64,000 nucleotides of DNA. Origin: Thermoanaerobaculia bacterium. GTDB taxonomy: Bacteria; Acidobacteriota; Thermoanaerobaculia; UBA5066. The position numbers and the translations under genes are program-made. Below the pieces are notes generated by a model. That model was not told the origin of the DNA, did no database searches, and saw only the letters and a list, made by a program, of their open reading frames with translations. The stretch's first letter is position 1, and each line of letters opens with the position of its first letter. The stretch covers positions 372,001 to 436,000 of the forward strand of contig JAJVIN010000001.1 in the NCBI GenBank assembly GCA_022071945.1, read 5' to 3'. Shown here piece by piece: positions 720 to 12,293 of this stretch.

Positions 720-1931
720 TCAGCCGGGGTCGCTGACGCGGTAGATCATCGCGAGGCCCTTGACGCCGCCTTGACGGAGCTTCCGGAACAGGGCGAGAGC
801 CTCCGAAAAAGTCTCGAAGCGGCCCGTCAGGACACAGTGCCGGACCCCCAGCGCGCCCGGCTCGCTCGAGGCGACGAAGACCGGCTCGGGCGAGCGGCTC
901 TTCCACTCGATCGTCGCGACCGAGGCGAGACCGCGATCCTGGTACGAATCGAGAAGCACCGAGTAGACCGGCTGCTTGCCGGCCCAGTCCCGGGTTTTGA
1001 ATCCCGCTGCCGCCGACGGCTCGGGCATCTCCTTTTTCGACCCGGGCTGGAGCGCTTCCCAGATCGCGCTCGAGGCGGTCGGAGCCGGGCGCTGCTCGAA
1101 CAACTCGGAGGGCGGGACGAGCGTGACCTGCGCCATCGGGGAAGGCGGGGCCGCGAGATAAAAGTCGCCGATCACGTCCGAAAAGATCCACGGCCGCTGC
1201 CGGCCCCCCGATGCCGAAAAGACGCGAGCCTTGACCTCGTCGAAGACCTGGGTCGCCTTCACGCCCCGCTTGCGAAGAGCCTCGACGAGGTACTTCGTGA
1301 AGAGGCCGTTCGATTCCCCAGGGTTGTCCGAAGCCGTCTTCCCCGGCCCCGTCGCCAGGACGATCAGCGTCCCCTGGCCGCCCTCCATGGCGGCCAGCCC
1401 CGTCATCCCGGAACGGGTGGTCTTGAAGGGATTGTCCCGGCAGGCATCGATCACGAGGATGCTGAGGGCCGGCTTCGCCGCCTCCATCCGCTCCCGGATC
1501 ATCTCGATCGAGAGCCCTCGCTCCTTCGCCGAGATCTCGTCGTCCGCCTGAAAGTCGACCGGGACCACGTAGTTGACGTTCTCGATCTGGATCCCGTGCC
1601 CCGAGTAATAGAAAAACGCCGTGTCGCCAGGAGAGATCTGAGAGGTGAACCGGCGAATGGCGCGCTCGGAATCGGCCCGCGCGAGATTCTCGAACTGCGA
1701 CACCGAGAAGCCGATCTCGCGCAGGACCGCCGCGACAGAACGAGAGTCGTTGACGGCGTTTCTGAGCGGAATCCCCGGATAGAGGTTGTTGCCGATCGCC
1801 AGGGCGATGCGCCTCGAGGAAGAGCCCGCGGACTGGGGCAGCGGGGGAAGCCGCCGCTCCCCCGTCTGGGCCAGCAGGGAAAGCGCAAGAAGACCGGCGA
1901 GGACACCACAGAGCTTCGGAAGGGACCGCAC
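720..1931 (-). CDS. Secreted caspase-family (C14) protease with SPOR-like C-terminus
   Basis: This is a prokaryotic caspase-like cysteine peptidase, predicted to be exported. From the GTG at 1931 the protein has 403 residues and a hydrophobic N-terminal segment (about residues 8-22) that looks like a signal peptide. The p20-like core has the catalytic His in FFYYSGHG (His112) and the catalytic Cys in VIDACRDNPF (Cys164). The last 80 residues (from about 323) resemble a SPOR peptidoglycan-binding domain, which I hold only moderately. The frame stays open to an ATG at 2081, but that extension is Arg/Gly/Pro-rich and would bury the signal peptide. A TATAAA sits six bases before the GTG. It is divergent from the caspase operon that begins at 2189. 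Confidence 0.83.
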   Translation of the reverse strand: MRSLPKLCGVLAGLLALSLLAQTGERRLPPLPQSAGSSSRRIALAIGNNLYPGIPLRNAVNDSRSVAAVLREIGFSVSQFENLARADSERAIRRFTSQISPGDTAFFYYSGHGIQIENVNYVVPVDFQADDEISAKERGLSIEMIRERMEAAKPALSILVIDACRDNPFKTTRSGMTGLAAMEGGQGTLIVLATGPGKTASDNPGESNGLFTKYLVEALRKRGVKATQVFDEVKARVFSASGGRQRPWIFSDVIGDFYLAAPPSPMAQVTLVPPSELFEQRPAPTASSAIWEALQPGSKKEMPEPSAAAGFKTRDWAGKQPVYSVLLDSYQDRGLASVATIEWKSRSPEPVFVASSEPGALGVRHCVLTGRFETFSEALALFRKLRQGGVKGLAMIYRVSDPG

Positions 1932-2188
1932 CCGCCGTTTATACCTAATCCCGTTGGCTCTTCGGGAGGGACGCTCCGTCTCCCCAACGAGCCGGCGGCC
2001 GGGTGCCCGGCTCCGTCCCCCCGGTCCCAGGAGCCCAACACCAGCGCACGCGAATCGAAAGATCGAAAAACGGGGCGTCATCCTTCATCATAGCCGCCAC
2101 CCACGTGTGCTCGAGCGGGTCTCGTGACAGTCGATGTCTCCCGCTGCCTCGATCCCGCATCCCCGAACGCCGTCAAGGAGACCGATCC

Positions 2189-2854
2189 ATGAAACGACCC
2201 TACTTCCACCTGTTCGCCCTCGTGGCGTCGCTCTCGATCAGCTCCTCCGCGCTCTCGCAGATCCCTGGCAGAAAGCCGCTCAGCGCACGCGACCTTTACT
2301 ACGCTCCGGGCCAGGGACAGCAAGGGAGCAAGATCTCGATCAAGCTGAACCGGGGAGGAACGATCACGATGGTCCCTCCCGGCTACCGGTTCCGGTCCGG
2401 CGATCAGATCCGCCTCGTCTTCTCGACGAACTTCACGGGCTACGTCGGAATCTCCAACCAGGGCTCGACGGGAGCCGTCACCCTGCTGTATCCGCCGGCC
2501 GGCGACTTGGGACAGGTCACCCCCTCCAGCAATTTCGAGGTGCCCGGGCAGGGCTGGCTCCAGTTCGACAACAAGCCGGGCCGCGAGCGGCTCGTCGTCG
2601 TCTTGTCTCCGAAGCCCATTCCCGTAATCGCCGCGGCTTCTTCCCCGGCCACGCCCCAGCCAGCTGGCGCCACGACTCCGCAGCAGCAGGCGGAGATCCT
2701 TGCGCAGCTCAACAGCAAGGCCCTCGAGGAGACCCGCCGGATGCAGGGCGGGCGTGACCTCTCCTTCATTCCGGATGGGGACTCGATCTACGCCAACTCG
2801 GGCGCCGCCGTCCAGAAGCCCTGGGGCTTCGAGCTCTTCCTCACACACGAATGA
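2189..2854 (+). CDS. Exported DUF4384-type protein, first gene of caspase operon
   Basis: This 221-residue protein of unknown function has a signal peptide (MKRPYFHLFALVASLSISSSALSQ) and, at about residues 50-115, the pattern YRFRSGDQIRLVFSTNFTGY followed by a Gly-Tyr-Val strand and LLYPP. That pattern matches DUF4384, a domain often linked to bacterial caspases. A Gln/Ala/Pro-rich linker and a short C-terminal block follow. The ATG at 2189 has AAGGAG eight bases upstream. Its stop overlaps the next start as ATGA, implying translational coupling to the caspase downstream. A longer in-frame start at 2003 gives no signal peptide and was not used. Confidence 0.82.
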   Translation: MKRPYFHLFALVASLSISSSALSQIPGRKPLSARDLYYAPGQGQQGSKISIKLNRGGTITMVPPGYRFRSGDQIRLVFSTNFTGYVGISNQGSTGAVTLLYPPAGDLGQVTPSSNFEVPGQGWLQFDNKPGRERLVVVLSPKPIPVIAAASSPATPQPAGATTPQQQAEILAQLNSKALEETRRMQGGRDLSFIPDGDSIYANSGAAVQKPWGFELFLTHE

Positions 2855-4308
2855 GACCGCTGGCATCACCCCTGGGACGATTCCCCGCGGTGTTCGCGGC
2901 CCTGGCCGTCCTCGTCGGCAGCCCCCTTCTCCCGCTGCCCGCCGCGGGGGCGCCGCCCAGCGCGCTCCCACCGAAATCCACGGGAGGAACGAGACGGGCC
3001 GTCATCACCGGCATCAACGACTACGGCTACATCAAAAAGCTCAAGGGCTGCGTGGCCGACGCCCATCACATGCGAGACGCCCTCGTCTCCAAGTTTGGAT
3101 TCGACCCGGCCAACGTCCGCCTCCTCCTCGACAAGGACGCGTCGAGAACGGACATCCTTCAGGCGTTGCGGAGCTCGGTCGCGGCCAGCGGCCCCGGCGA
3201 CCTCTTCGTCTTCTACTACTCGGGCCATGGAAGTGTCTTCCCCGACGACCTGTCTCCGATCCAGGATGAGACTCGAGTCATCCAGGCCGGACCGTACATC
3301 CCGAGAACGGGGCGCTACGACTCGGCCCTCTGCTCGTGGGACACGGGCGGGCCCTCTACGAATCCGAAACCGTGGGAGAACCTGATCCTCGACGACGAGC
3401 TCAACGAGATCTTCGCGGGGGCCTCGGAGAGGGGCGTCGCCGTCACGCTGATCTCCGACTCTTGCCACTCCGGCTCTCTGGCGCGCGAGCTCCCCAGGGA
3501 CACCGCCATCAAGTTCGTCTCTCCCCGAGAAGCTCTGAGGGGAAGCCTGGCCCCAGCGCCGCGCTCGGCCGGGCCCACCACCCCGAGAGCGCCCGGCAAG
3601 GGCTTCATCGCGCTCGGCGGCTGCAAGGACGAACAGACATCCAAGGACAGCCCCAACGGCGGGCTCTTCACCACGGCGCTCCTGGCAGTCGTGGAGGACC
3701 TCTCGCACAAGAACAAGGGAGCCCTGACCTACGAAACGGTTTTCGCCCAGACCAAGGGCATCGTGATGGAGCTCTCCCGGAAAATCTTCGGCGAGCTGCA
3801 GGAACCTTCGCTAGATGACCGGTTCTTCGGAGCTTCCCTCTCAACTCCCCTGTTCACCGCCCCCGGCTCGCCCTCCCCGCCCGTCCCCGCCACGGCGCCT
3901 CCCGCGCCGGTCCCCACCTCGATTCCCGCCTCACCGCCCGCGACCGTGCCCCCCGCAACGCCGCCAACCCCGGCATCGGTTCCGGCCGCGACCGCCGCGG
4001 CTCCCGTGATCCGCCGAGTCGTCATCCGGATTCGCGACCATGCCGGAAACCCCGTTGCGGGCGCCGCCATCGCCCTTCTCCCCGCCTCGTTCCCCGCCGG
4101 CAAGGAGATCCGGCCCTCGGATGCGCTGGCCCTCGGGCGGACAGGCGAGAAGGGCCTCTACGACAGCGGGGCCGTTTCTCTTTCGCCCGGCCTCTATCGG
4201 GCCAGGATCGTCGCTCCCGGGTTGCGGACGTTCGACGGCCCCGTAACGCTCGAGGGCGGAATCGAAGCGGCGACCGCCGTTCTTTCCTTTGACTTGGACA
4301 AGGATTAG
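2851..4308 (+). CDS. Exported caspase-family protease with Pro-rich linker and Ig-like C-terminal domain
   Basis: This is a metacaspase-like C14 peptidase of 485 residues. A signal peptide covers about residues 1-33. The catalytic domain (about 47-335) contains VFYYSGHGS (His126) and ISDSCHSGS (Cys205), with an intact dyad and the acidic residue before Cys that is usual for Arg/Lys-specific caspases. A Pro/Ala/Thr-rich linker (about 338-385) leads to a C-terminal beta-sandwich of the carboxypeptidase-regulatory-like type (about 388-485, RDHAGNPVAGAAIALLP). Linkers of this kind usually separate an enzyme from a surface-binding domain. The gene is coupled to its upstream partner by a 4-bp overlap and lies 8 bp from the next gene. 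Confidence 0.88.
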   Translation: MRPLASPLGRFPAVFAALAVLVGSPLLPLPAAGAPPSALPPKSTGGTRRAVITGINDYGYIKKLKGCVADAHHMRDALVSKFGFDPANVRLLLDKDASRTDILQALRSSVAASGPGDLFVFYYSGHGSVFPDDLSPIQDETRVIQAGPYIPRTGRYDSALCSWDTGGPSTNPKPWENLILDDELNEIFAGASERGVAVTLISDSCHSGSLARELPRDTAIKFVSPREALRGSLAPAPRSAGPTTPRAPGKGFIALGGCKDEQTSKDSPNGGLFTTALLAVVEDLSHKNKGALTYETVFAQTKGIVMELSRKIFGELQEPSLDDRFFGASLSTPLFTAPGSPSPPVPATAPPAPVPTSIPASPPATVPPATPPTPASVPAATAAAPVIRRVVIRIRDHAGNPVAGAAIALLPASFPAGKEIRPSDALALGRTGEKGLYDSGAVSLSPGLYRARIVAPGLRTFDGPVTLEGGIEAATAVLSFDLDKD

Positions 4309-4316
4309 GAGAACCG

Positions 4317-5816
4317 GTGGCGAGGGCTTTCTGCTGGATCCTGACTGCAGCCCTGTTCCCGGCGCTGTCTGCCGCGGGAGCTGACAGAGCTCTGGTCATC
4401 GGGATCGAGCGGTACGCAAGCACCGCGGTTCCACCCACGGCCGGGAGCGAGCGAGATGCTCGGGAGCTCTCGCGGTTTCTGACGGCGCGCATGGGCTTTC
4501 CGCCCGGCTCGGTCCGGATGCTCCTCAACGAAGAGGCCACGGCCTCGCGCATCGAGAAGGAGTTTCAGAGCTGGCTCATCGCGGGCTCCGGCCCGGGTGA
4601 CCGGGTCTTCTTCTCGTATTCGGGACACGGCTCCCGAGTTCCTCGCACGGACGGCGCCGGCGATTTCCACAACACGCTCGCTCCCTACGACGTGGACCCG
4701 GAGTCCGGGGCTCATCAGGTTCTGGACACCACGATCCGAAGGCTCGTGAACCAGCTCGCGGGGCGGCGGGCCGTTCTCCTCTTCGACTCCTGTCACTCAG
4801 GCAGCATCGCCCGCTCCCTATCCTCCGCCCAGGCGGGAAAGCGAGCGTTCAGCGGCCGGTACCTCCCGACTCCAGCGGAAATCTCGGCTTTCCGTGGATC
4901 CAATTCCGGGTCCCTCGGCCGCGAGAGTTTCGTCGTGACGGCAACCGGCAGTTCCCGCTCCGTTCCAGCCAAATCCGCGGACAGGGGGATGTTCTTGACG
5001 ACGACCATGGAAGGCGCTGGAAGCGGCGTCATCTCCATCGCCGCTGCCGCGGACCACCAGGTCGCGTTTCCGTTCCAGGCTCCGGACGGCAAGGTGATGG
5101 GCGCCCTGACGTGGGCGTTTCTCGAGTCCGTCGGCGGCGGAGCCTCTCCGTTCGGCAAGGTGAGGACCGAAATCCCGGCCGCGATCGCGCGGCTCCAGGC
5201 GGCCGGTCTCCTGCAGGGCGAGCAGGTGCCACAGTTCGACGTCCGGACGACCGACACGCTCTCCCTCGAGAGTCAGCCTCTCTTCGGAACCTGGCAGACG
5301 GCGGCGGCAACGGCGATGCAAAATCCGGCCTGCCCCGGCCGGCTCTCCCTGCGGATGGCACCCAAGCGTCCCGGCGAACCCTATCGCGAGGGGGAGACCT
5401 TCGCCTTCGACGTGGAATCCTCGATGCAGGGTTACCTCTACCTCCTGGTCTTCAGCGAGGGGCGCAAGGCGAGCTGTTTGATTCCAAACGTTCTCGACCG
5501 GGATCCGAGGATCTCCGCCGGCAAGAGCAGGTTTCCCAGGAAGGGCGAGGAGTTCGTCGTCACGTGTCACCCCGCCCCGTGCGGAACGGACGTCGCCGTC
5601 GCCATCGTCAGCGAACAGCCGCTCGGACTCGGCGAGAAGGAAAACTACGCGTGGGACGAGATCTTCGGACGCCTCCGGTTGAAGGAGCTGGAGGCGTATC
5701 TCGGCGTGCCTGCCGTGGCTGGCGCGCCTGCCCGCAGGAAAGCCACCGCCGGGCCAACTGCTCCCGCGGGCACATGGCAGGCCGCCACCGCCATCTTCGA
5801 GAGCCGCAAACGATGA
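4317..5816 (+). CDS. Exported caspase-DUF4384 fusion protease
   Basis: This is the second plus-strand caspase, 499 residues from a GTG at 4317 preceded by TAGGAG. A short signal peptide (about 1-20) precedes the C14 domain with VFFSYSGHGS (His104) and LLFDSCHSGS (Cys159). The C-terminal part (about 345-440) repeats the DUF4384 pattern (EPYREGETFAFDV, then GYLYLLVFSEG and LIPN) seen as a stand-alone protein in the first gene of the operon. Several cysteines late in the protein could form disulfides after export. Its stop overlaps the next ATG (ATGA), so the two are probably translated together. The active-site signature is very close to that of the preceding caspase, which suggests tandem duplication followed by divergence of the tails. 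Confidence 0.88.
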   Translation: MARAFCWILTAALFPALSAAGADRALVIGIERYASTAVPPTAGSERDARELSRFLTARMGFPPGSVRMLLNEEATASRIEKEFQSWLIAGSGPGDRVFFSYSGHGSRVPRTDGAGDFHNTLAPYDVDPESGAHQVLDTTIRRLVNQLAGRRAVLLFDSCHSGSIARSLSSAQAGKRAFSGRYLPTPAEISAFRGSNSGSLGRESFVVTATGSSRSVPAKSADRGMFLTTTMEGAGSGVISIAAAADHQVAFPFQAPDGKVMGALTWAFLESVGGGASPFGKVRTEIPAAIARLQAAGLLQGEQVPQFDVRTTDTLSLESQPLFGTWQTAAATAMQNPACPGRLSLRMAPKRPGEPYREGETFAFDVESSMQGYLYLLVFSEGRKASCLIPNVLDRDPRISAGKSRFPRKGEEFVVTCHPAPCGTDVAVAIVSEQPLGLGEKENYAWDEIFGRLRLKELEAYLGVPAVAGAPARRKATAGPTAPAGTWQAATAIFESRKR

Positions 5817-6691
5817 AGGCATGCCTGCTTCTGGCGTTCCTGGCCTTTCCCGCCGCCGCCCTCACGTGCGACGAGCGCGCCCTCGAGCTCGAACGGAGAG
5901 CTCACCTCCTCGAGAGCCGGGAATTCGTCCGCGTTGCGTCGCAGCTCGTCTCCGACTGCCCGGCGAACGCACGGGCGCGGAATCTTCTCGCGACCGCCCT
6001 GGAGAGTTCCGGCGATCTCTCCGGCGCGGCAAGCCAGTACCAGGAGGCAGAGCGGCTCGATCCGAAGTGGGCCTACCCGCACCTCGGTCTGGGAGACATC
6101 GCCGCCGCGCGCAAGGACTTCGAGACGGCGAAGGAGCAGTACCTGCAGGCGTCCAGGCTCGCCGCGAACCCCGGCGAGCGTTCCGACGCCGCGCGTTCGC
6201 TCGAGAGTCTCCCGGGAAGCTCGCGATCCTATTCGTTCAAGTCCGCGGGAAGTATCGAGAAGCTCCTCGACATCGGCCACGATCACCGGGGACGGCGCGG
6301 AGCTTCCGTGAGGATCCCCAGCCCGTCTCTCGATTCCTTTGTCTCGGAGTCTGGAATCGCGGTGAACTTCACGATCGAATTCGATTTCGACTCCGCCGCT
6401 GTCCGTCCCGCTGCCATCCCGCAGCTGATCGAGCTCGCCGCGGCCCTGAAGAAGGCCGCGGCCAAAGAACGCTACGTCATCGAAGGGCATTCGAGCTCGG
6501 AGGGCGACCTGGCTCACAACACGCGTCTCTCGCTCGAAAGGGCCAAGAGCGTCCTGGCGACCCTCGTCGCGGGTGGAGTCAGCCCGGCGATCCTCTCGCC
6601 GCGAGGCGCCGGTCCGTCGCGCCTGGTCCTGGAGAACGGAGTCGAAAACAAGGAGAAGAGCCGGAGAGTCACGCTCTTCCGGCCCTTCTGA
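5813..6691 (+). CDS. TPR-OmpA periplasmic protein, last gene of caspase operon
   Basis: This 292-residue exported protein has a signal peptide (about 1-17), TPR-like helices (about 25-125, including SSGDLSGAASQYQEAERLDP) and a C-terminal OmpA/MotB-like peptidoglycan-binding domain (about 185-292). The OmpA domain has the expected IEFDFDSAAVRP start, the IEGHSSSEG loop, the LSLERAKSV helix and a final RRVTL strand. The GH-S-S motif replaces the more common GHTD. TPR plus OmpA suggests a scaffold that binds the cell wall and recruits partners, so it may position the exported caspases encoded just upstream. It overlaps the preceding stop by four bases. Confidence 0.85.
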   Translation: MKACLLLAFLAFPAAALTCDERALELERRAHLLESREFVRVASQLVSDCPANARARNLLATALESSGDLSGAASQYQEAERLDPKWAYPHLGLGDIAAARKDFETAKEQYLQASRLAANPGERSDAARSLESLPGSSRSYSFKSAGSIEKLLDIGHDHRGRRGASVRIPSPSLDSFVSESGIAVNFTIEFDFDSAAVRPAAIPQLIELAAALKKAAAKERYVIEGHSSSEGDLAHNTRLSLERAKSVLATLVAGGVSPAILSPRGAGPSRLVLENGVENKEKSRRVTLFRPF

Positions 6692-6706
6692 TCCTGGCGC
6701 TTTTTG

Positions 6707-6724
6707 GAAGGGTCTCGACCCTTC
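6707..6724. terminator. Hairpin between convergent genes (weak terminator candidate)
   Basis: GAAGGGT and ACCCTTC form a perfect 7-bp stem with a CTCG tetraloop, between the end of the TPR-OmpA gene and the end of pstB1. Neither strand has a T-tract after the stem, so an intrinsic terminator is not proven. Confidence 0.35.
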
Positions 6725-6779
6725 AGCGAGTCATGGTGACGGCGGCCCGGCCTCTGTGAGGTTGCGGCCGAGCCCGCCC

Positions 6780-7556
6780 TCAGCCGTAGCGTCCCTCGAT
6801 GTACTCGAGCGTCTTGGGGTTCCTGGGATTGAGGAAGAGGTCCTCGGTCTTGGCGTGCTCGACCACTCTGCCCATCAGCATGAAGATGCTCTCGTCGGAG
6901 GCGCGGCGAGCCTGCGACATGTTGTGGGTGACGATGACGATCGTGTAGCGGCCCTTCAGCTCGAACATCTGCTCCTCGATCGCTCGCGTCCCCTCGACGT
7001 CGAGAGCCGAACAGGGTTCGTCCATCAGGATGACCTCGGGCTTGAGAGGCAGAAGCCGCGCGATGCAGAGCTTTTGTTGCTGCTCGAGCTGGAGCGAGGT
7101 GGCCCTCGCGTCGAGCCGGTCCTTCAGGTCCTTCCAGAGTCCCACCTCGGTGAGGGCCTTTTCCACGGCGGTATCCAGCTCGGAACGCTTCAGCTCCCGC
7201 CTTTTCGAGTGGATCCTCAGTCCGAAGACGACGTTCTCGTAGACGGAAACGGGCAGGGGATTCGGCCTCTGGAAGACCATTCCGACCGCCTTGCGGAGCT
7301 CGACCAGGGAGACATCGGAATCGTAGATGTTCTTGCCGAGAATCTCGATTCCCCCGGAGGTCCTCACGTAGTCGTACCGCTCGTTGACACGATTGAAGCA
7401 GCGCAGGAGGGTTGTCTTCCCGCATCCCGAGGGTCCGATGAGAGAAGTGATCTGGCCTTCCTTGACCTCGATCGAAACGTCGATCAGGGCCTGGAACGAG
7501 CCGTACCAGAGCGAGAGCCCCCGGGTGACGATGGCGTTCCGGCCGTTCTCTCTCAT
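6780..7556 (-). CDS. pstB: Phosphate ABC transporter ATPase PstB1, degenerate signature motif
   Basis: This is the 258-residue ATP-binding subunit of the Pst high-affinity phosphate importer, acting on the cytoplasmic face. Walker A (GPSGCGKT, 41-48), the Q-loop (MVFQRPNP, Gln96), Walker B (VILMDEP) and the H-loop (IVTHN, His211) are intact. The ABC signature, normally LSGGQQQR, reads LQLEQQQK (155-162), losing both glycines and the serine. Its start overlaps the stop of pstB2 by 4 bp. It ends the phosphate operon. The lesion is complementary to the defects in pstB2, which suggests an obligate heterodimer rather than a dead gene. Confidence 0.9.
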   Translation of the reverse strand: MRENGRNAIVTRGLSLWYGSFQALIDVSIEVKEGQITSLIGPSGCGKTTLLRCFNRVNERYDYVRTSGGIEILGKNIYDSDVSLVELRKAVGMVFQRPNPLPVSVYENVVFGLRIHSKRRELKRSELDTAVEKALTEVGLWKDLKDRLDARATSLQLEQQQKLCIARLLPLKPEVILMDEPCSALDVEGTRAIEEQMFELKGRYTIVIVTHNMSQARRASDESIFMLMGRVVEHAKTEDLFLNPRNPKTLEYIEGRYG

Positions 7557-8317
7557 CCGAAGATCCCGTTCACGTACCCGTAGGTCCGGCGATCGGCGGG
7601 GTTGTCAGAGAAGACGACGTCCGTCGATCCGACCTCGACGATGTCGCCATTCCAGAGGAACATCGTCCGGTCCGCGAGACGCCTGGCCTGCTGCACCAGG
7701 TTGGTGACCAGGATGATGGTGACCCTGGACTGGAGCTCCTTCAGGACATCCTCGATTCGCATGGTCGTCACCGGATCGATGGCGATCGAAAACTCGTCGA
7801 GGCAGAGGATCTCGGGATCGTGGGAGAGGGCACGGGCGATCGTGAGCCGCTGCTGTTGCCCGCCCGACAGAGCGGTCCCGAGGCTGCCGAGCCGGTCCTT
7901 GACCTCGTCCCAGAGCGCAGCCTGGCGCAAGCACCTCTCCACGATGGCCTCGAGCTCTCCCCGGGCCTTCATGCCGGCACAGCGGGGAGCGAAGGCCACG
8001 TTGTCGAAGATCGTGAGCGGGAGCCCGACCGGGAGCGGGGCGACCATCCCGACCTTCCGTCTCAGGGCGAAGACGTCCTTCACGCGGCGCACGTCGAGCC
8101 CGTCGATCTTCACCGTGCCGGTGACACTGGCCTCGGCAACCTGATCGATCGTCCGGTTCAGGCATCGGAGCAGAGACGTCTTCCCCGACTGCGCCGGGCC
8201 GATGATGGCGAAGATCTCGTTCTCTTTCACGTCGAACGAAATCCCGTGCAGGACTTCCTTCGTGCCGTAGGCAACCCTGAGGTCGCTCACTTCGATGGCG
8301 AGTCGGGACGCCGTCAC
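7553..8317 (-). CDS. pstB: Phosphate ABC transporter ATPase PstB2, degenerate Q- and H-loops
   Basis: This 254-residue second PstB-like ATPase retains Walker A (GPAQSGKT, 40-47), a perfect signature (LSGGQQQR, 150-157) and the Walker B aspartate and glutamate (ILCLDE). The Q-loop reads MVAPLP, with no glutamine, and the H-loop reads LVTNL, with Asn206 where histidine should be. DEPTSALD is altered to DEFSIAID. These are the positions that remain intact in pstB1. The gene lies 4 bp after pstA and overlaps pstB1 by 4 bp. Family assignment is firm; the asymmetric ATPase role is inferred. Confidence 0.9.
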   Translation of the reverse strand: MTASRLAIEVSDLRVAYGTKEVLHGISFDVKENEIFAIIGPAQSGKTSLLRCLNRTIDQVAEASVTGTVKIDGLDVRRVKDVFALRRKVGMVAPLPVGLPLTIFDNVAFAPRCAGMKARGELEAIVERCLRQAALWDEVKDRLGSLGTALSGGQQQRLTIARALSHDPEILCLDEFSIAIDPVTTMRIEDVLKELQSRVTIILVTNLVQQARRLADRTMFLWNGDIVEVGSTDVVFSDNPADRRTYGYVNGIFG

Positions 8318-8321
8318 ACTC

Positions 8322-9233
8322 TCACCACTTCTTCCGGCCGCGGAGCCAGATCCGCAGGACGATGGCGCTCGCGTTGACGAGGAGAACCGACCCGAGAAGG
8401 ACGACCGCCGTCGCGTAGGGGATCGATTCCTTCACGTTCGGGACCTGGGTCGACACCGTGTAGAGGTGCATCGACAGGGCCATGCACTGATCCCCGAGGC
8501 GGTAGGGGAAGAGGTCCCCCCTGCTCACCGCCTTGAAGAAGACGGCTCCGGTGAACATGACGGGCGCAGTTTCGCCCGCGGCCCGGCTCACCTGCAGGAT
8601 GATGCCGGTGAGGATCCCCGAGATGGAGTTCGGCAGGACGACGGCCCGGATGGTCTGCCAGCGCGTGGCCCCGACGTTGGCACAAGCGTCCCGGAAGGCC
8701 CTCGGAACCGCCGAGAGGGCCTCGCGCGTGCTGGCGATGATGACGGGCAGCGTCATGATCGCGAGCGTGAGGGAAGCGGACAGGATGGAGAAACCGAACC
8801 TGGCTCCATAGACGAACGCGCCGAGGCCGAACAGGGCGTGCACGATGCTGGGCACTCCGGCCAGGTTGATGACCGCCATGTTGATGAGACGATTCAGCCA
8901 GCTCTCCCGGGCGTATTCGTTGAGGTAGATCGCCGCCAGGACACCGATCGGGGCCGAGATCGCAAGCGAGAGGCCGACGAGGTAGAGCGTGCCGACGAAG
9001 GCGGACCAGATCCCGCCTTCCCTCATCCCCTTTCTCGGGATGTCGGCCAAGAACTCCCATCCGAGGCTCGGCCACGCCTTGTAAAGGAGGTACACGATGA
9101 TGGCCACGAGCGGCAGCACCATGGCGAGAGACATCGCGCCGAAGACCCACTTCGCCACCGTTTGCGCCCGTTCGCGGCGGGCCACCTGGTGAGTCCGGGT
9201 GAACCGCTCGGAGGGGGGAGTCACGGATTCCAT
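8322..9233 (-). CDS. pstA: Phosphate ABC transporter permease PstA
   Basis: This 303-residue inner-membrane permease has about six hydrophobic segments, the first at residues 28-50. The binding-protein-dependent permease core includes the EAA-type loop (ALSAVPRAFRDACANVGATRWQ in pieces, about 170-192) that docks on the ATPase. It pairs with PstC to form the phosphate channel. It starts 6 bp after pstC and ends 4 bp before pstB2, consistent with one transcript. Nothing in it looks damaged, and its length is normal for PstA. Confidence 0.93.
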   Translation of the reverse strand: MESVTPPSERFTRTHQVARRERAQTVAKWVFGAMSLAMVLPLVAIIVYLLYKAWPSLGWEFLADIPRKGMREGGIWSAFVGTLYLVGLSLAISAPIGVLAAIYLNEYARESWLNRLINMAVINLAGVPSIVHALFGLGAFVYGARFGFSILSASLTLAIMTLPVIIASTREALSAVPRAFRDACANVGATRWQTIRAVVLPNSISGILTGIILQVSRAAGETAPVMFTGAVFFKAVSRGDLFPYRLGDQCMALSMHLYTVSTQVPNVKESIPYATAVVLLGSVLLVNASAIVLRIWLRGRKKW

Positions 9234-9239
9234 GGAACC

Positions 9240-10178
9240 TCACTTCCTCCGGATTCCGCGCACGGCCAGATCCGCGGCCACGTTGACGACGAGGGTGATG
9301 GCGAACAGGAGGACGCCGGTCAGGAAGAGGACGCGATAGTGGCTCGACCCGGCCGGGGCCTCGCCGAGCTCCGCCGCGACGTTCGCGGTCAGGGTGCGGA
9401 CCGAGTCCAGGAGGCCGTGCGGGATCTGCACGGCGTGCCCGGTTGCCATCAAGACCGCCATCGTCTCCCCCACCGCTCTGCCCACGCCGAGGAGAACCGC
9501 GGCCAGAAGTCCGTTCTTGGCCGCGGGCAGCAGCACGCGGAACACGGTCTCCCAGCGGGTCGCGCCGAGGGCGAGCGCCGCCTCGCGGTACGAGTCGGGC
9601 ACGGCCTTCAGGGCGTCTTCCCCTATCGAGACGATGACGGGAACACTCATCAGCGCCAGGATGAACCCGCCGTTGAGGAGGTTGACTCCGACAGCCGTGC
9701 CGGTGACGGAGACGATCAGCTTGCTCATGACGGTCAGCCCGATGAAGCCCCAGACGACACTCGGGATCGCCGCGAGGAGCTCGATGACGATCTTGAGAGT
9801 CTCCTTGATCTTGGGTGAGCAGAACTCCGAGATGAAGATGGCCGCTCCGAGGCCGAAAGGGACGGCCAGGACGATCGCGACGCCCGTGACGGAAAGAGTG
9901 CCGATCGTCAGGGCGAAGGTCCCGTACCTGACGTTGTTGACGGAGGTCGGGTACCACTCCTTGCTGAAAAGGAACTCCGCGAAATCGAAATCGGGATCCC
10001 ACAGGACGGGGACCGCCTCGCGGAAGATGAAGAAGAAGATGGCCGCGACGAAGAAGACGGCGGAGACTCCGCTCAGCCGGATGACGAACTCGATGATCCG
10101 CTCGATTGCAATCGAGGCCTTCGGCCGCTGGGGCCGAGGCGCCCCCACTGTCCGCCTGCCTTCGGAGACAGCGCTCAT
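9240..10178 (-). CDS. pstC: Phosphate ABC transporter permease PstC
   Basis: This 312-residue permease has a first transmembrane segment at about residues 33-52 (LSGVSAVFFVAAIFFFIF) and several more after a periplasmic region. The EAA loop (ALKAVPDSYREAALALGATR, about 205-224) is well conserved. It forms the translocation pathway with PstA and receives phosphate from PstS. The basic N-terminus before the first helix is usual for PstC. It lies 46 bp after pstS and 6 bp before pstA. Confidence 0.93.
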   Translation of the reverse strand: MSAVSEGRRTVGAPRPQRPKASIAIERIIEFVIRLSGVSAVFFVAAIFFFIFREAVPVLWDPDFDFAEFLFSKEWYPTSVNNVRYGTFALTIGTLSVTGVAIVLAVPFGLGAAIFISEFCSPKIKETLKIVIELLAAIPSVVWGFIGLTVMSKLIVSVTGTAVGVNLLNGGFILALMSVPVIVSIGEDALKAVPDSYREAALALGATRWETVFRVLLPAAKNGLLAAVLLGVGRAVGETMAVLMATGHAVQIPHGLLDSVRTLTANVAAELGEAPAGSSHYRVLFLTGVLLFAITLVVNVAADLAVRGIRRK

Positions 10179-10224: not shown

Positions 10225-11142
10225 TCACTTGGTTGCCCCAGCCGGGTTCAGCGGCACGTCGCCATTCTCGGCGAGGATCTTCTGTCCCGCCGGGGAGAGG
10301 ATCCAGTCGATGTACTTCTTGACCTCGCCCTGGGGCTCGCCGAGCGTGTACAGCTGGAGCGACCGCGCGAGCGGGTAGACCTTCGAGATGGTGTTGGCGA
10401 CCGTGGCCTCATAGGCCGGCTCGCCCGGCTTGGCCGAAAGCTTGAGGATCTTGACCGCCGGCGTGGCGTAGGCCATGCCGCTGTAGCCGATCGCGGTCTT
10501 CGACGAACCAACCAGCTCGACGACCTCCTTCGAGCCGTTCATGTCGCGGGACCCGAGCTTGAAGTCCCTCTTGCCGAGGACGTGCTCGCGGAAGAACTCG
10601 TAGGTGCCCGAGCTCGACTGGCGGCTGACGCGGATGATGGTGTCATCGCTGGCGCCCGGAATCGTGACCCCGGCATCGGACCACTTCGTCAGCTTCCCGT
10701 CCTCCGCGAAGATCTCGGCGAGCTGCGGAAGCGAGATCTCGGTCATGGGGTTGTCCTTGTGCACGTAGATGGCGAGGCCATCGAAGCCGACGATGAACTC
10801 CTTCGGTTCCTTGCCCGTGTTCTTTTTCGCCCTCTCCGCTTCCTCGGGCTTGATGTTCCGGCTCGCGTTGGCGATGTCGACCGTTCCCTTCTCCAGGGCC
10901 GCGATCCCGACTCCCGAGCCGCCACCCGAGACCTCGACGCCGACGTTCGGAGCAGCGACCTTGTACGCCTCGGCCCAGGCCTGGGCGACATTGACCATGG
11001 TGTCGGATCCGCGGACCTGAATCGTCGTCATGGCAGGGCCGCCGCCGCTCTTGCCACAGCCCGGGGAGAAGAGGGCGAGAAGCGTCCCTCCCAGGAAGGC
11101 GCCGCTCAGGGCCAGGGTGGTCACGATTCGGTTTCGAGTCAT
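10225..11142 (-). CDS. pstS: Phosphate-binding lipoprotein PstS
   Basis: This is the periplasmic phosphate receptor of the Pst importer, 305 residues. I chose the ATG at 11142 because it gives a signal sequence ending in a lipobox-like SPGC and has AAAGGA just upstream; the open frame extends further but only through sequence antisense to the frame of the upstream gene. The PBP-like domain begins with TTIQVRGSDTMVNVAQAW and contains GGGSGVGIAAL and SRQSSSGTYEFF, typical phosphate-contacting loops. It lies 50 bp after the phoU-like gene and leads pstC. No clear PhoB box is visible upstream. Confidence 0.92.
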   Translation of the reverse strand: MTRNRIVTTLALSGAFLGGTLLALFSPGCGKSGGGPAMTTIQVRGSDTMVNVAQAWAEAYKVAAPNVGVEVSGGGSGVGIAALEKGTVDIANASRNIKPEEAERAKKNTGKEPKEFIVGFDGLAIYVHKDNPMTEISLPQLAEIFAEDGKLTKWSDAGVTIPGASDDTIIRVSRQSSSGTYEFFREHVLGKRDFKLGSRDMNGSKEVVELVGSSKTAIGYSGMAYATPAVKILKLSAKPGEPAYEATVANTISKVYPLARSLQLYTLGEPQGEVKKYIDWILSPAGQKILAENGDVPLNPAGATK

Positions 11143-11192: not shown

Positions 11193-12293
11193 TCAGCCGT
11201 GGTTGGAATCGCGGATGGCCGAGACGAGATCGCGGATCTGACCCTCGATGAAGTCGTAGGTCCGCTGCATCGCTTCGGAAACCGCCGCCGGACCGCCTGC
11301 TGCCTGGGTCGGGTTCTCTGTACTCCAGTCCAGGAGCACGGTGTGCCGCGGCCGCCTCGGAAACGCGCGTCTGGCCTCGGCGGCTAAGAGCACGATCACG
11401 TCGGAATGGTCGATGTTGGGGATCTGGGCTAGCGACTTGGGAACGGAACGGGCCACGTTGAAGCCCTTCTTCGCCATGAACTCCACCGTGGAGGGGTGCA
11501 GAGGCCTCGGATCCACTCCCGCGCTGGAAAAGGAGAAGTTCGGAATGCGAAGGGCGTTCCCGATTGCCTCGGCCATGAGGCTCCGGCAATCGTTGTGCTC
11601 GTCGATGAAGAGAACGTTGAAGACATTCGACCCCGGGTGCTTGGCGATCTCGCCCGTGCACATGTAGAGGGTCTCCATGCTGATGTTGCGAGCCTGGTCC
11701 GAGACCCGCTCGAGCCGCCGGGCGATCATCACGAGAGGGTTGAGGGCTTCAAAGGGGAGCTGGCCCTCGCGGTAGAGAACTGTCAGTTCCCTCGTGAGCG
11801 TGTCTCGCAACAAATCCACGGCGTCGTCGGCCTCGATCGTTCGGCGGGCCAGCTCGGCATCCTGATTGACGAACGCCTGGATGGCATCGTGGAGCATCGG
11901 GACGGCCAGGCCGACCACCTGCTTGAGCCGGTCGAGAGGGAGCTCGGCATCGACCTCGGTCAGCTTCAGGGCCTGACGCGCAATCGATTCCGCGTAGTCA
12001 CCGACGCGCTCGAGCTCCAGGTTGATCTTGATCGTGGCATAGGCGAAACGGAGCAGGCTCGCCGCGGGCTGATGCTTGACCAGGAACGCCAGGCACATCT
12101 TGTCGAGCTGCTTTTCAGCTTCGTCGATGTACTGGTCCCTGAGGATCACCGCGAAGGCGAGCTGCCGGTTCCTCTCGACGGCGGCCCGGATGCTGGCCAG
12201 GATGGCCCTTTCCGCGAGCCCTCCCATCTCGATGACCTTGTCCCTGATGAGCGCCAGATCCTGACGCAGCGATGCCTCGAGGTAGGTGGACAT
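11193..12293 (-). CDS. phoU: PhoU fused to an inactive low-molecular-weight phosphatase-like domain
   Basis: The N-terminal 215 residues are PhoU, a three-helix-bundle duplication with the metal-binding signatures ELERVGDYAESIA (about 94-106) and RRLERVSDQARNI (about 192-204). PhoU signals phosphate status from the Pst transporter. The C-terminal 140 residues resemble low-molecular-weight tyrosine phosphatases and ArsC-type arsenate reductases, but the P-loop reads FIDEHNDCRSLMAEA where the family has a Cys at the third position. Asp231 replaces the nucleophile, so catalysis should be lost. I chose the ATG at 12293, which has GAGG ten bases upstream; an in-frame ATG at 12311 is possible. It is the first gene of the pst operon, whereas phoU usually comes last. 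Confidence 0.88.
   Translation of the reverse strand: MSTYLEASLRQDLALIRDKVIEMGGLAERAILASIRAAVERNRQLAFAVILRDQYIDEAEKQLDKMCLAFLVKHQPAASLLRFAYATIKINLELERVGDYAESIARQALKLTEVDAELPLDRLKQVVGLAVPMLHDAIQAFVNQDAELARRTIEADDAVDLLRDTLTRELTVLYREGQLPFEALNPLVMIARRLERVSDQARNISMETLYMCTGEIAKHPGSNVFNVLFIDEHNDCRSLMAEAIGNALRIPNFSFSSAGVDPRPLHPSTVEFMAKKGFNVARSVPKSLAQIPNIDHSDVIVLLAAEARRAFPRRPRHTVLLDWSTENPTQAAGGPAAVSEAMQRTYDFIEGQIRDLVSAIRDSNHG

Follow-up and report, generated by a model that had tools for sequence, protein, structure and literature searches.

A PhoU protein fused to an ArsC-type domain without its catalytic cysteine, encoded beside an asymmetric PstB pair in Acidobacteriota

PhoU is a negative regulator of the phosphate transporter Pst and of PhoR/PhoB. 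The protein described here joins a PhoU to a domain whose closest described relatives are the thioredoxin-coupled ArsC proteins of the pI258/B.subtilis type, which have the fold of low molecular weight (LMW) phosphatases. Phosphatase domains that lost the catalytic cysteine and use the fold for binding or regulation are described from eukaryotes, namely STYX, MK-STYX and the D2 domains of receptor PTPs (PMC9464862). These belong to another phosphatase superfamily and another kingdom, and the analogy to the present protein is one of logic only. The transporter genes next to the fusion resemble a second known system, the heterodimeric ABC exporters in which one of the nucleotide-binding sites is degenerate; the available review covers exporters only (PMC7756269). 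Among Pst transporters, the tandem PstB1/PstB2 of E.faecalis is the only such pair studied according to its authors, and both proteins keep all reported motifs (PMC12096839). No paper dealing specifically with PhoU-ArsC fusions or with a degenerate-site PstB was found in the open-access papers searched, which are a part of all literature.

The fusion gene is located at 11193..12293 on the minus strand of the window, i. e. the whole stretch of 64,000 nucleotides of a Thermoanaerobaculia genome (6.17 Mb) that was analyzed. Its reading frame runs from an ATG at 12293 to 11193, encodes 366 amino acids and is matched by Pfam as well as NCBIfam models. Residues 10-216 (11646..12266, minus strand) contain two PhoU repeats (PF01895, 4.5e-32) and pass the full-length PhoU model of NCBIfam (TIGR02135, phoU_full, 1.4e-46) with 158.8 bits, the equivalog cut-off being 130.25. 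Residues 227-356 (11226..11615, minus strand) match the LMWPc family (PF01451, 3.1e-9) with 37.6 bits against a gathering cut-off of 23.2. Both Pfam matches are above their gathering cut-offs, which bears out the original prediction of a PhoU fused to an LMW phosphatase/ArsC-type domain. The best NCBIfam model for the second domain was arsC_pI258 (TIGR02691, 5e-15), which at 55.9 bits stays under its cut-off of 174.3, and solved ArsC structures match the family profile across the whole of residues 227-356, with 1y1l as the best (2.7e-13). By these sequence profiles, from which the ArsC-type fold is assigned, the C-terminal domain is of the LMW phosphatase type and closest to the ArsC arsenate reductases. 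An AlphaFold2 model from a two-sequence alignment (the window protein and that of locus L034) had a pLDDT of about 30 in this domain. The idea of a receiver origin had been prompted by the residues VLFIDEHN, which resemble the N-terminal end of the receiver domain in response regulators, and by a plasmid match in tblastn that spanned a PhoU and continued into the neighbouring PhoB. It was not supported: Pfam gives LMWPc and no receiver, and the matches in the PDB are ArsC proteins.

Relatives were collected from 148 genomes of the class and a 396-genome sample of the phylum Acidobacteriota; outside the phylum the survey covered plasmids, where no record spanned 80% of the window fusion. A full or nearly full pseudo-fusion was present in 37 genomes. 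Clade A comprises 16 fusions with 42-74% identity to the window protein, the 74% relative being from a Thermoanaerobaculaceae MAG, and clade B comprises 21 with about 29-37%. In the tree of the LMW domains, A and B stand alone on one side of a branch supported by 100/99. In the tree of the PhoU domains they are likewise set apart (100/100) from all other PhoU proteins sampled. Both trees were built without an outgroup root, so that a clade is here one side of a supported branch.

The P-loop of active LMW phosphatases and ArsC proteins has the form C-x5-R, canonically followed by Ser. In the window protein the corresponding loop (11580..11603, minus strand) is F229-I-D231-E-H-N-D-C236-R237-S238, with Asp231 in the place of the nucleophilic Cys, as had been noticed from the sequence at the outset. 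The same column is free of Cys in all 37 orthologues, each from a distinct Acidobacteriota genome: 33 have Asp, two members of clade A have Gly, one protein has Glu and one member of clade B has Ser. The codon of Asp231 is GAC, two substitutions away from a Cys codon. A sequencing error, which would have explained the missing Cys away, was therefore rejected.

The Cys is not the only catalytic feature affected. Neither the second nor the third relay Cys of ArsC has a counterpart in the window protein, which is free of cysteines in the region aligned to them. In place of the general-acid DP motif the window protein has NP; most of clade A retains DP, and clade B has lost the motif. Yet the domain is maintained, as its dN/dS is 0.10-0.31 (Nei-Gojobori, 11 pairs; in the deeper ones the synonymous changes approach saturation), and the residues kept in most or all orthologues include N234, S238, SAG 257-259, P262, G277, P285 and W323. 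As far as can be told from the sequences, these losses together with purifying selection mean that the C-terminal domain can no longer work as a Cys phosphatase or as an arsenate reductase but is maintained by selection, which supports the original reading as a pseudo-phosphatase. That it is still an enzyme, working through Cys236 or another residue, is very unlikely indeed. Cys236, which had been named as a possible substitute nucleophile, is kept in 13/16 proteins of clade A but is missing in the other three and in 14/21 of clade B (present in seven), so that it was rejected as the nucleophile for lack of conservation across the family. Moreover LMW-PTP loops ordinarily have a second Cys at this place, which is off the nucleophile position, and the relay that ArsC chemistry uses is missing.

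The original prediction held further that the rest of the loop, including the Arg, is kept, and that the domain could serve as an oxyanion sensor. The first part is correct for the window protein and for the majority of clade A. However, Arg237 is absent in three of the 16 members of clade A and in all 21 of clade B, i. e. in 24/37 proteins, and one further loop of clade A is one residue shorter. A conserved P-loop Arg, as expected of an oxyanion-binding pseudophosphatase, is thus not a property of the family, and phosphate binding by the P-loop cannot be its shared role. What is left of the proposal concerns clade A, where the dead P-loop would bind phosphate, arsenate or a phosphorylated side chain, leave it unhydrolysed and signal to the PhoU part. 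It speaks for this that the window protein and most others of clade A retain the Arg, the Asn, the Ser and the length of the loop, that the gene is located in a phosphate operon, and that in STYX-type pseudophosphatases a Cys-less C-x5-R loop can serve in binding (PMC9464862). Besides the losses of Arg, the exchange of Cys for Asp would bring a negative charge to the anion seat, which would be expected to repel oxyanions. We regard a sensor of this kind as unlikely.

A different use of the same loop would be binding of a metal ion or other small ligand by the pair Asp231-x-x-Asn234. D231 (33/37) and N234 (35/37) are conserved in both clades despite the loss of Arg237, and PhoU proteins are metal-binding. 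Against this stand the Gly at position 231 in two proteins and the Ser in a third; moreover Asn234 is a normal residue of LMW-PTP P-loops, so that only the Asp is new. A re-purposed loop therefore appears quite improbable. It could also be argued that the domain is a structural leftover whose sole effect is to stabilize or lengthen PhoU, with neither a specific ligand nor a specific partner. It evolves faster than the PhoU part, whose dN/dS reaches up to 0.19 in the same pairwise comparison. The PF01451 match is weaker or absent in some family members, and in clade B erosion has gone so far that the domain may escape Pfam, as in L065, which has no LMWPc match. But the domain is kept in 37 genomes and in both clades, with the dN/dS given above and with invariant residues, and we find a mere leftover rather unlikely.

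PhoU-ArsC fusions with an intact Cys do exist. Two of them, L069 (G249) and L081 (G552), come from other Acidobacteriota families and are 85% identical to each other. They share with the pseudo-fusions the order of the domains and the association with a pst operon. They differ by the loop LCVHNSARS with intact Cys and Arg, by a relay-like CSEEIC pair and an EDP motif, and by their position as the last gene of a canonical single-PstB pst operon, with another LMW phosphatase gene upstream. The fusion of L069 lies at 1480-2595 (minus strand) of its locus, and its arsenate-reductase residues are apparently intact. Since the intact pair groups with stand-alone ArsC proteins in the LMW tree and among ordinary PhoU in the PhoU tree, the intact-Cys fusion is an independent event. 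Neither tree supports these proteins as the direct ancestor of the pseudo-fusions or as a refutation of the Cys loss. On plasmid PL131 of the archaeon Natronomonas pharaonis (L191) there is an unfused row pstS-C-A-B-phoU-phoU-LMW phosphatase, the last gene with an intact Cys; the part from pstB onwards lies at 5162-8077. The independent fusion and this unfused row indicate that PhoU and ArsC-like proteins associate repeatedly. For the pseudo-fusions, the most likely course of events is that the PhoU of the family ancestor acquired an ArsC-type LMW phosphatase domain in a single fusion, after which the catalytic Cys would have been lost and fixed mostly as Asp, the domain being retained as a non-catalytic module.

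A pst operon setting is what the fusion has in common with ordinary PhoU. In the window it is followed on the minus strand by pstS (10225..11142; TIGR02136), pstC (9240..10178; TIGR02138) and pstA (8322..9233; TIGR00974), all three over the respective cut-offs, and then by pstB1 (7553..8317) and pstB2 (6780..7556), the two genes sharing 4 bases at the end of pstB1. The link to pstS-C-A-B1-B2 is conserved, and the order fusion-pstS-pstC-pstA-pstB1-pstB2 is that of clade A. In clade B, pstS usually comes first and the fusion second (L099 has the order of clade A), so that the statement that the gene leads its operon applies to the window and clade A but not to the whole family. Genes for a kinase or regulator (phoR/phoB) are absent beside the window fusion. 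On contig 31 the host genome has a second, canonical operon in which pstS-C-A-B are accompanied by genes for a PhoB-like regulator, a PhoR-like kinase and a PhoU of one domain; its single PstB has LSGGQ and VTH. This set is likely the Pho-regulon sensor of the cell. Three neighbouring ORFs elsewhere in the window (720-2081, minus strand; 2851-4308 and 4317-5816, plus strand) resemble caspase-like proteins (peptidase C14), judged by eye from YYSGHG and DSCHSG.

The two PstB proteins of the window differ in their ATPase motifs. PstB1 keeps LSGGQ but has lost the Gln of the Q-loop (APLPVG) and has VTN in the H-loop, whereas PstB2 keeps Q-loop and H-loop and has LQLEQ instead of LSGGQ. The same division was found in 16/16 fusion operons in which both PstB are readable; these include L169, which has only a fusion end at the contig edge. 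PstB1 always has LSGGQ, no Q-loop Gln and Asn for the H-loop His, and PstB2 always has the Q-loop and an altered signature (LQLEQ, LSLEE or LALEE), with the His kept in all but one. The exception, L096 (PstB2 at 6408-7157), has VTY, i. e. Tyr for His besides the altered signature, which may be genuine or may stem from the assembly. Tandem PstB operons without a fusion showed the same complementary pattern (17/17), with a milder PstB2 signature in two (LSGEQ, LTGEQ), and single-PstB operons had canonical motifs (8/8); the non-fusion operons were drawn from the best PstB2 matches and the counts are thus not a random sample. In all, 33 tandem operons across many Acidobacteriota families have complementary motif loss, and the asymmetric pair is therefore independent of the fusion and wider in its spread. 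In L168 (G205), L167 (G358), L162-L164 and L174 (family f8), asymmetric PstB occur with an ordinary PhoU that is divergent, or with none found in the stretch examined. Complementary losses in two ATPase subunits are also the mark of the degenerate-site exporters, but here they occur in a Pst importer and are known from sequence. The E.faecalis pair keeps all its reported motifs. From the motif losses, one ATP site of the ABC importer is predicted to be dead: if PstB1 and PstB2 form a heterodimer, the Walker A, Walker B, Q-loop and His of PstB2 together with the LSGGQ of PstB1 would make up a consensus site, and the other site would be stripped of motifs from both sides.

How can the fusion and the asymmetric PstB pair be related? 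We propose, with a probability of about one half, that the fused PhoU is dedicated to the asymmetric transporter, the second one of the cell, and that its dead domain serves in docking or regulation. The dedication is suggested by the canonical operon having a kinase and a regulator and the window operon having none beside it. By analogy to PhoU elsewhere, the PhoU part would act on the adjoining transporter, and the pseudo-ArsC domain would help to target or tune the fused PhoU for this transporter and to keep the protein separate from the canonical Pst that is linked to PhoR/PhoB. A docking module is supported by the universal loss of Cys and the frequent loss of Arg with other residues conserved, purifying selection, the separation in the trees, the pst linkage, the complementary PstB in 16/16 operons and the second canonical operon. 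Against it, the asymmetric pair in 17 operons without a fusion means that such a transporter can do without the fused domain, and the Arg retained in most of clade A would permit ligand binding there. A more specific model, tentative and on balance doubtful, would be an Acidobacteriota-type Pst importer with one working ATP site which, in one branch, is controlled by the dead ArsC-type domain of the dedicated PhoU contacting PstB1/PstB2.

By what means PhoU reads out the state of Pst has long been an open question. A natural family of PhoU proteins that acquired a large domain of a dead enzyme, and that are linked to a Pst in which the ATPase labour is apparently divided, offers handles on both the ATP site and the contact that is sensed. 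If the proposal is true, a bacterial pseudophosphatase would have become fixed in a nutrient-signaling protein, the degenerate ATP site, which reviews treat mainly in exporters, would have a case in an importer, and a pseudo-enzyme would regulate an ABC importer.
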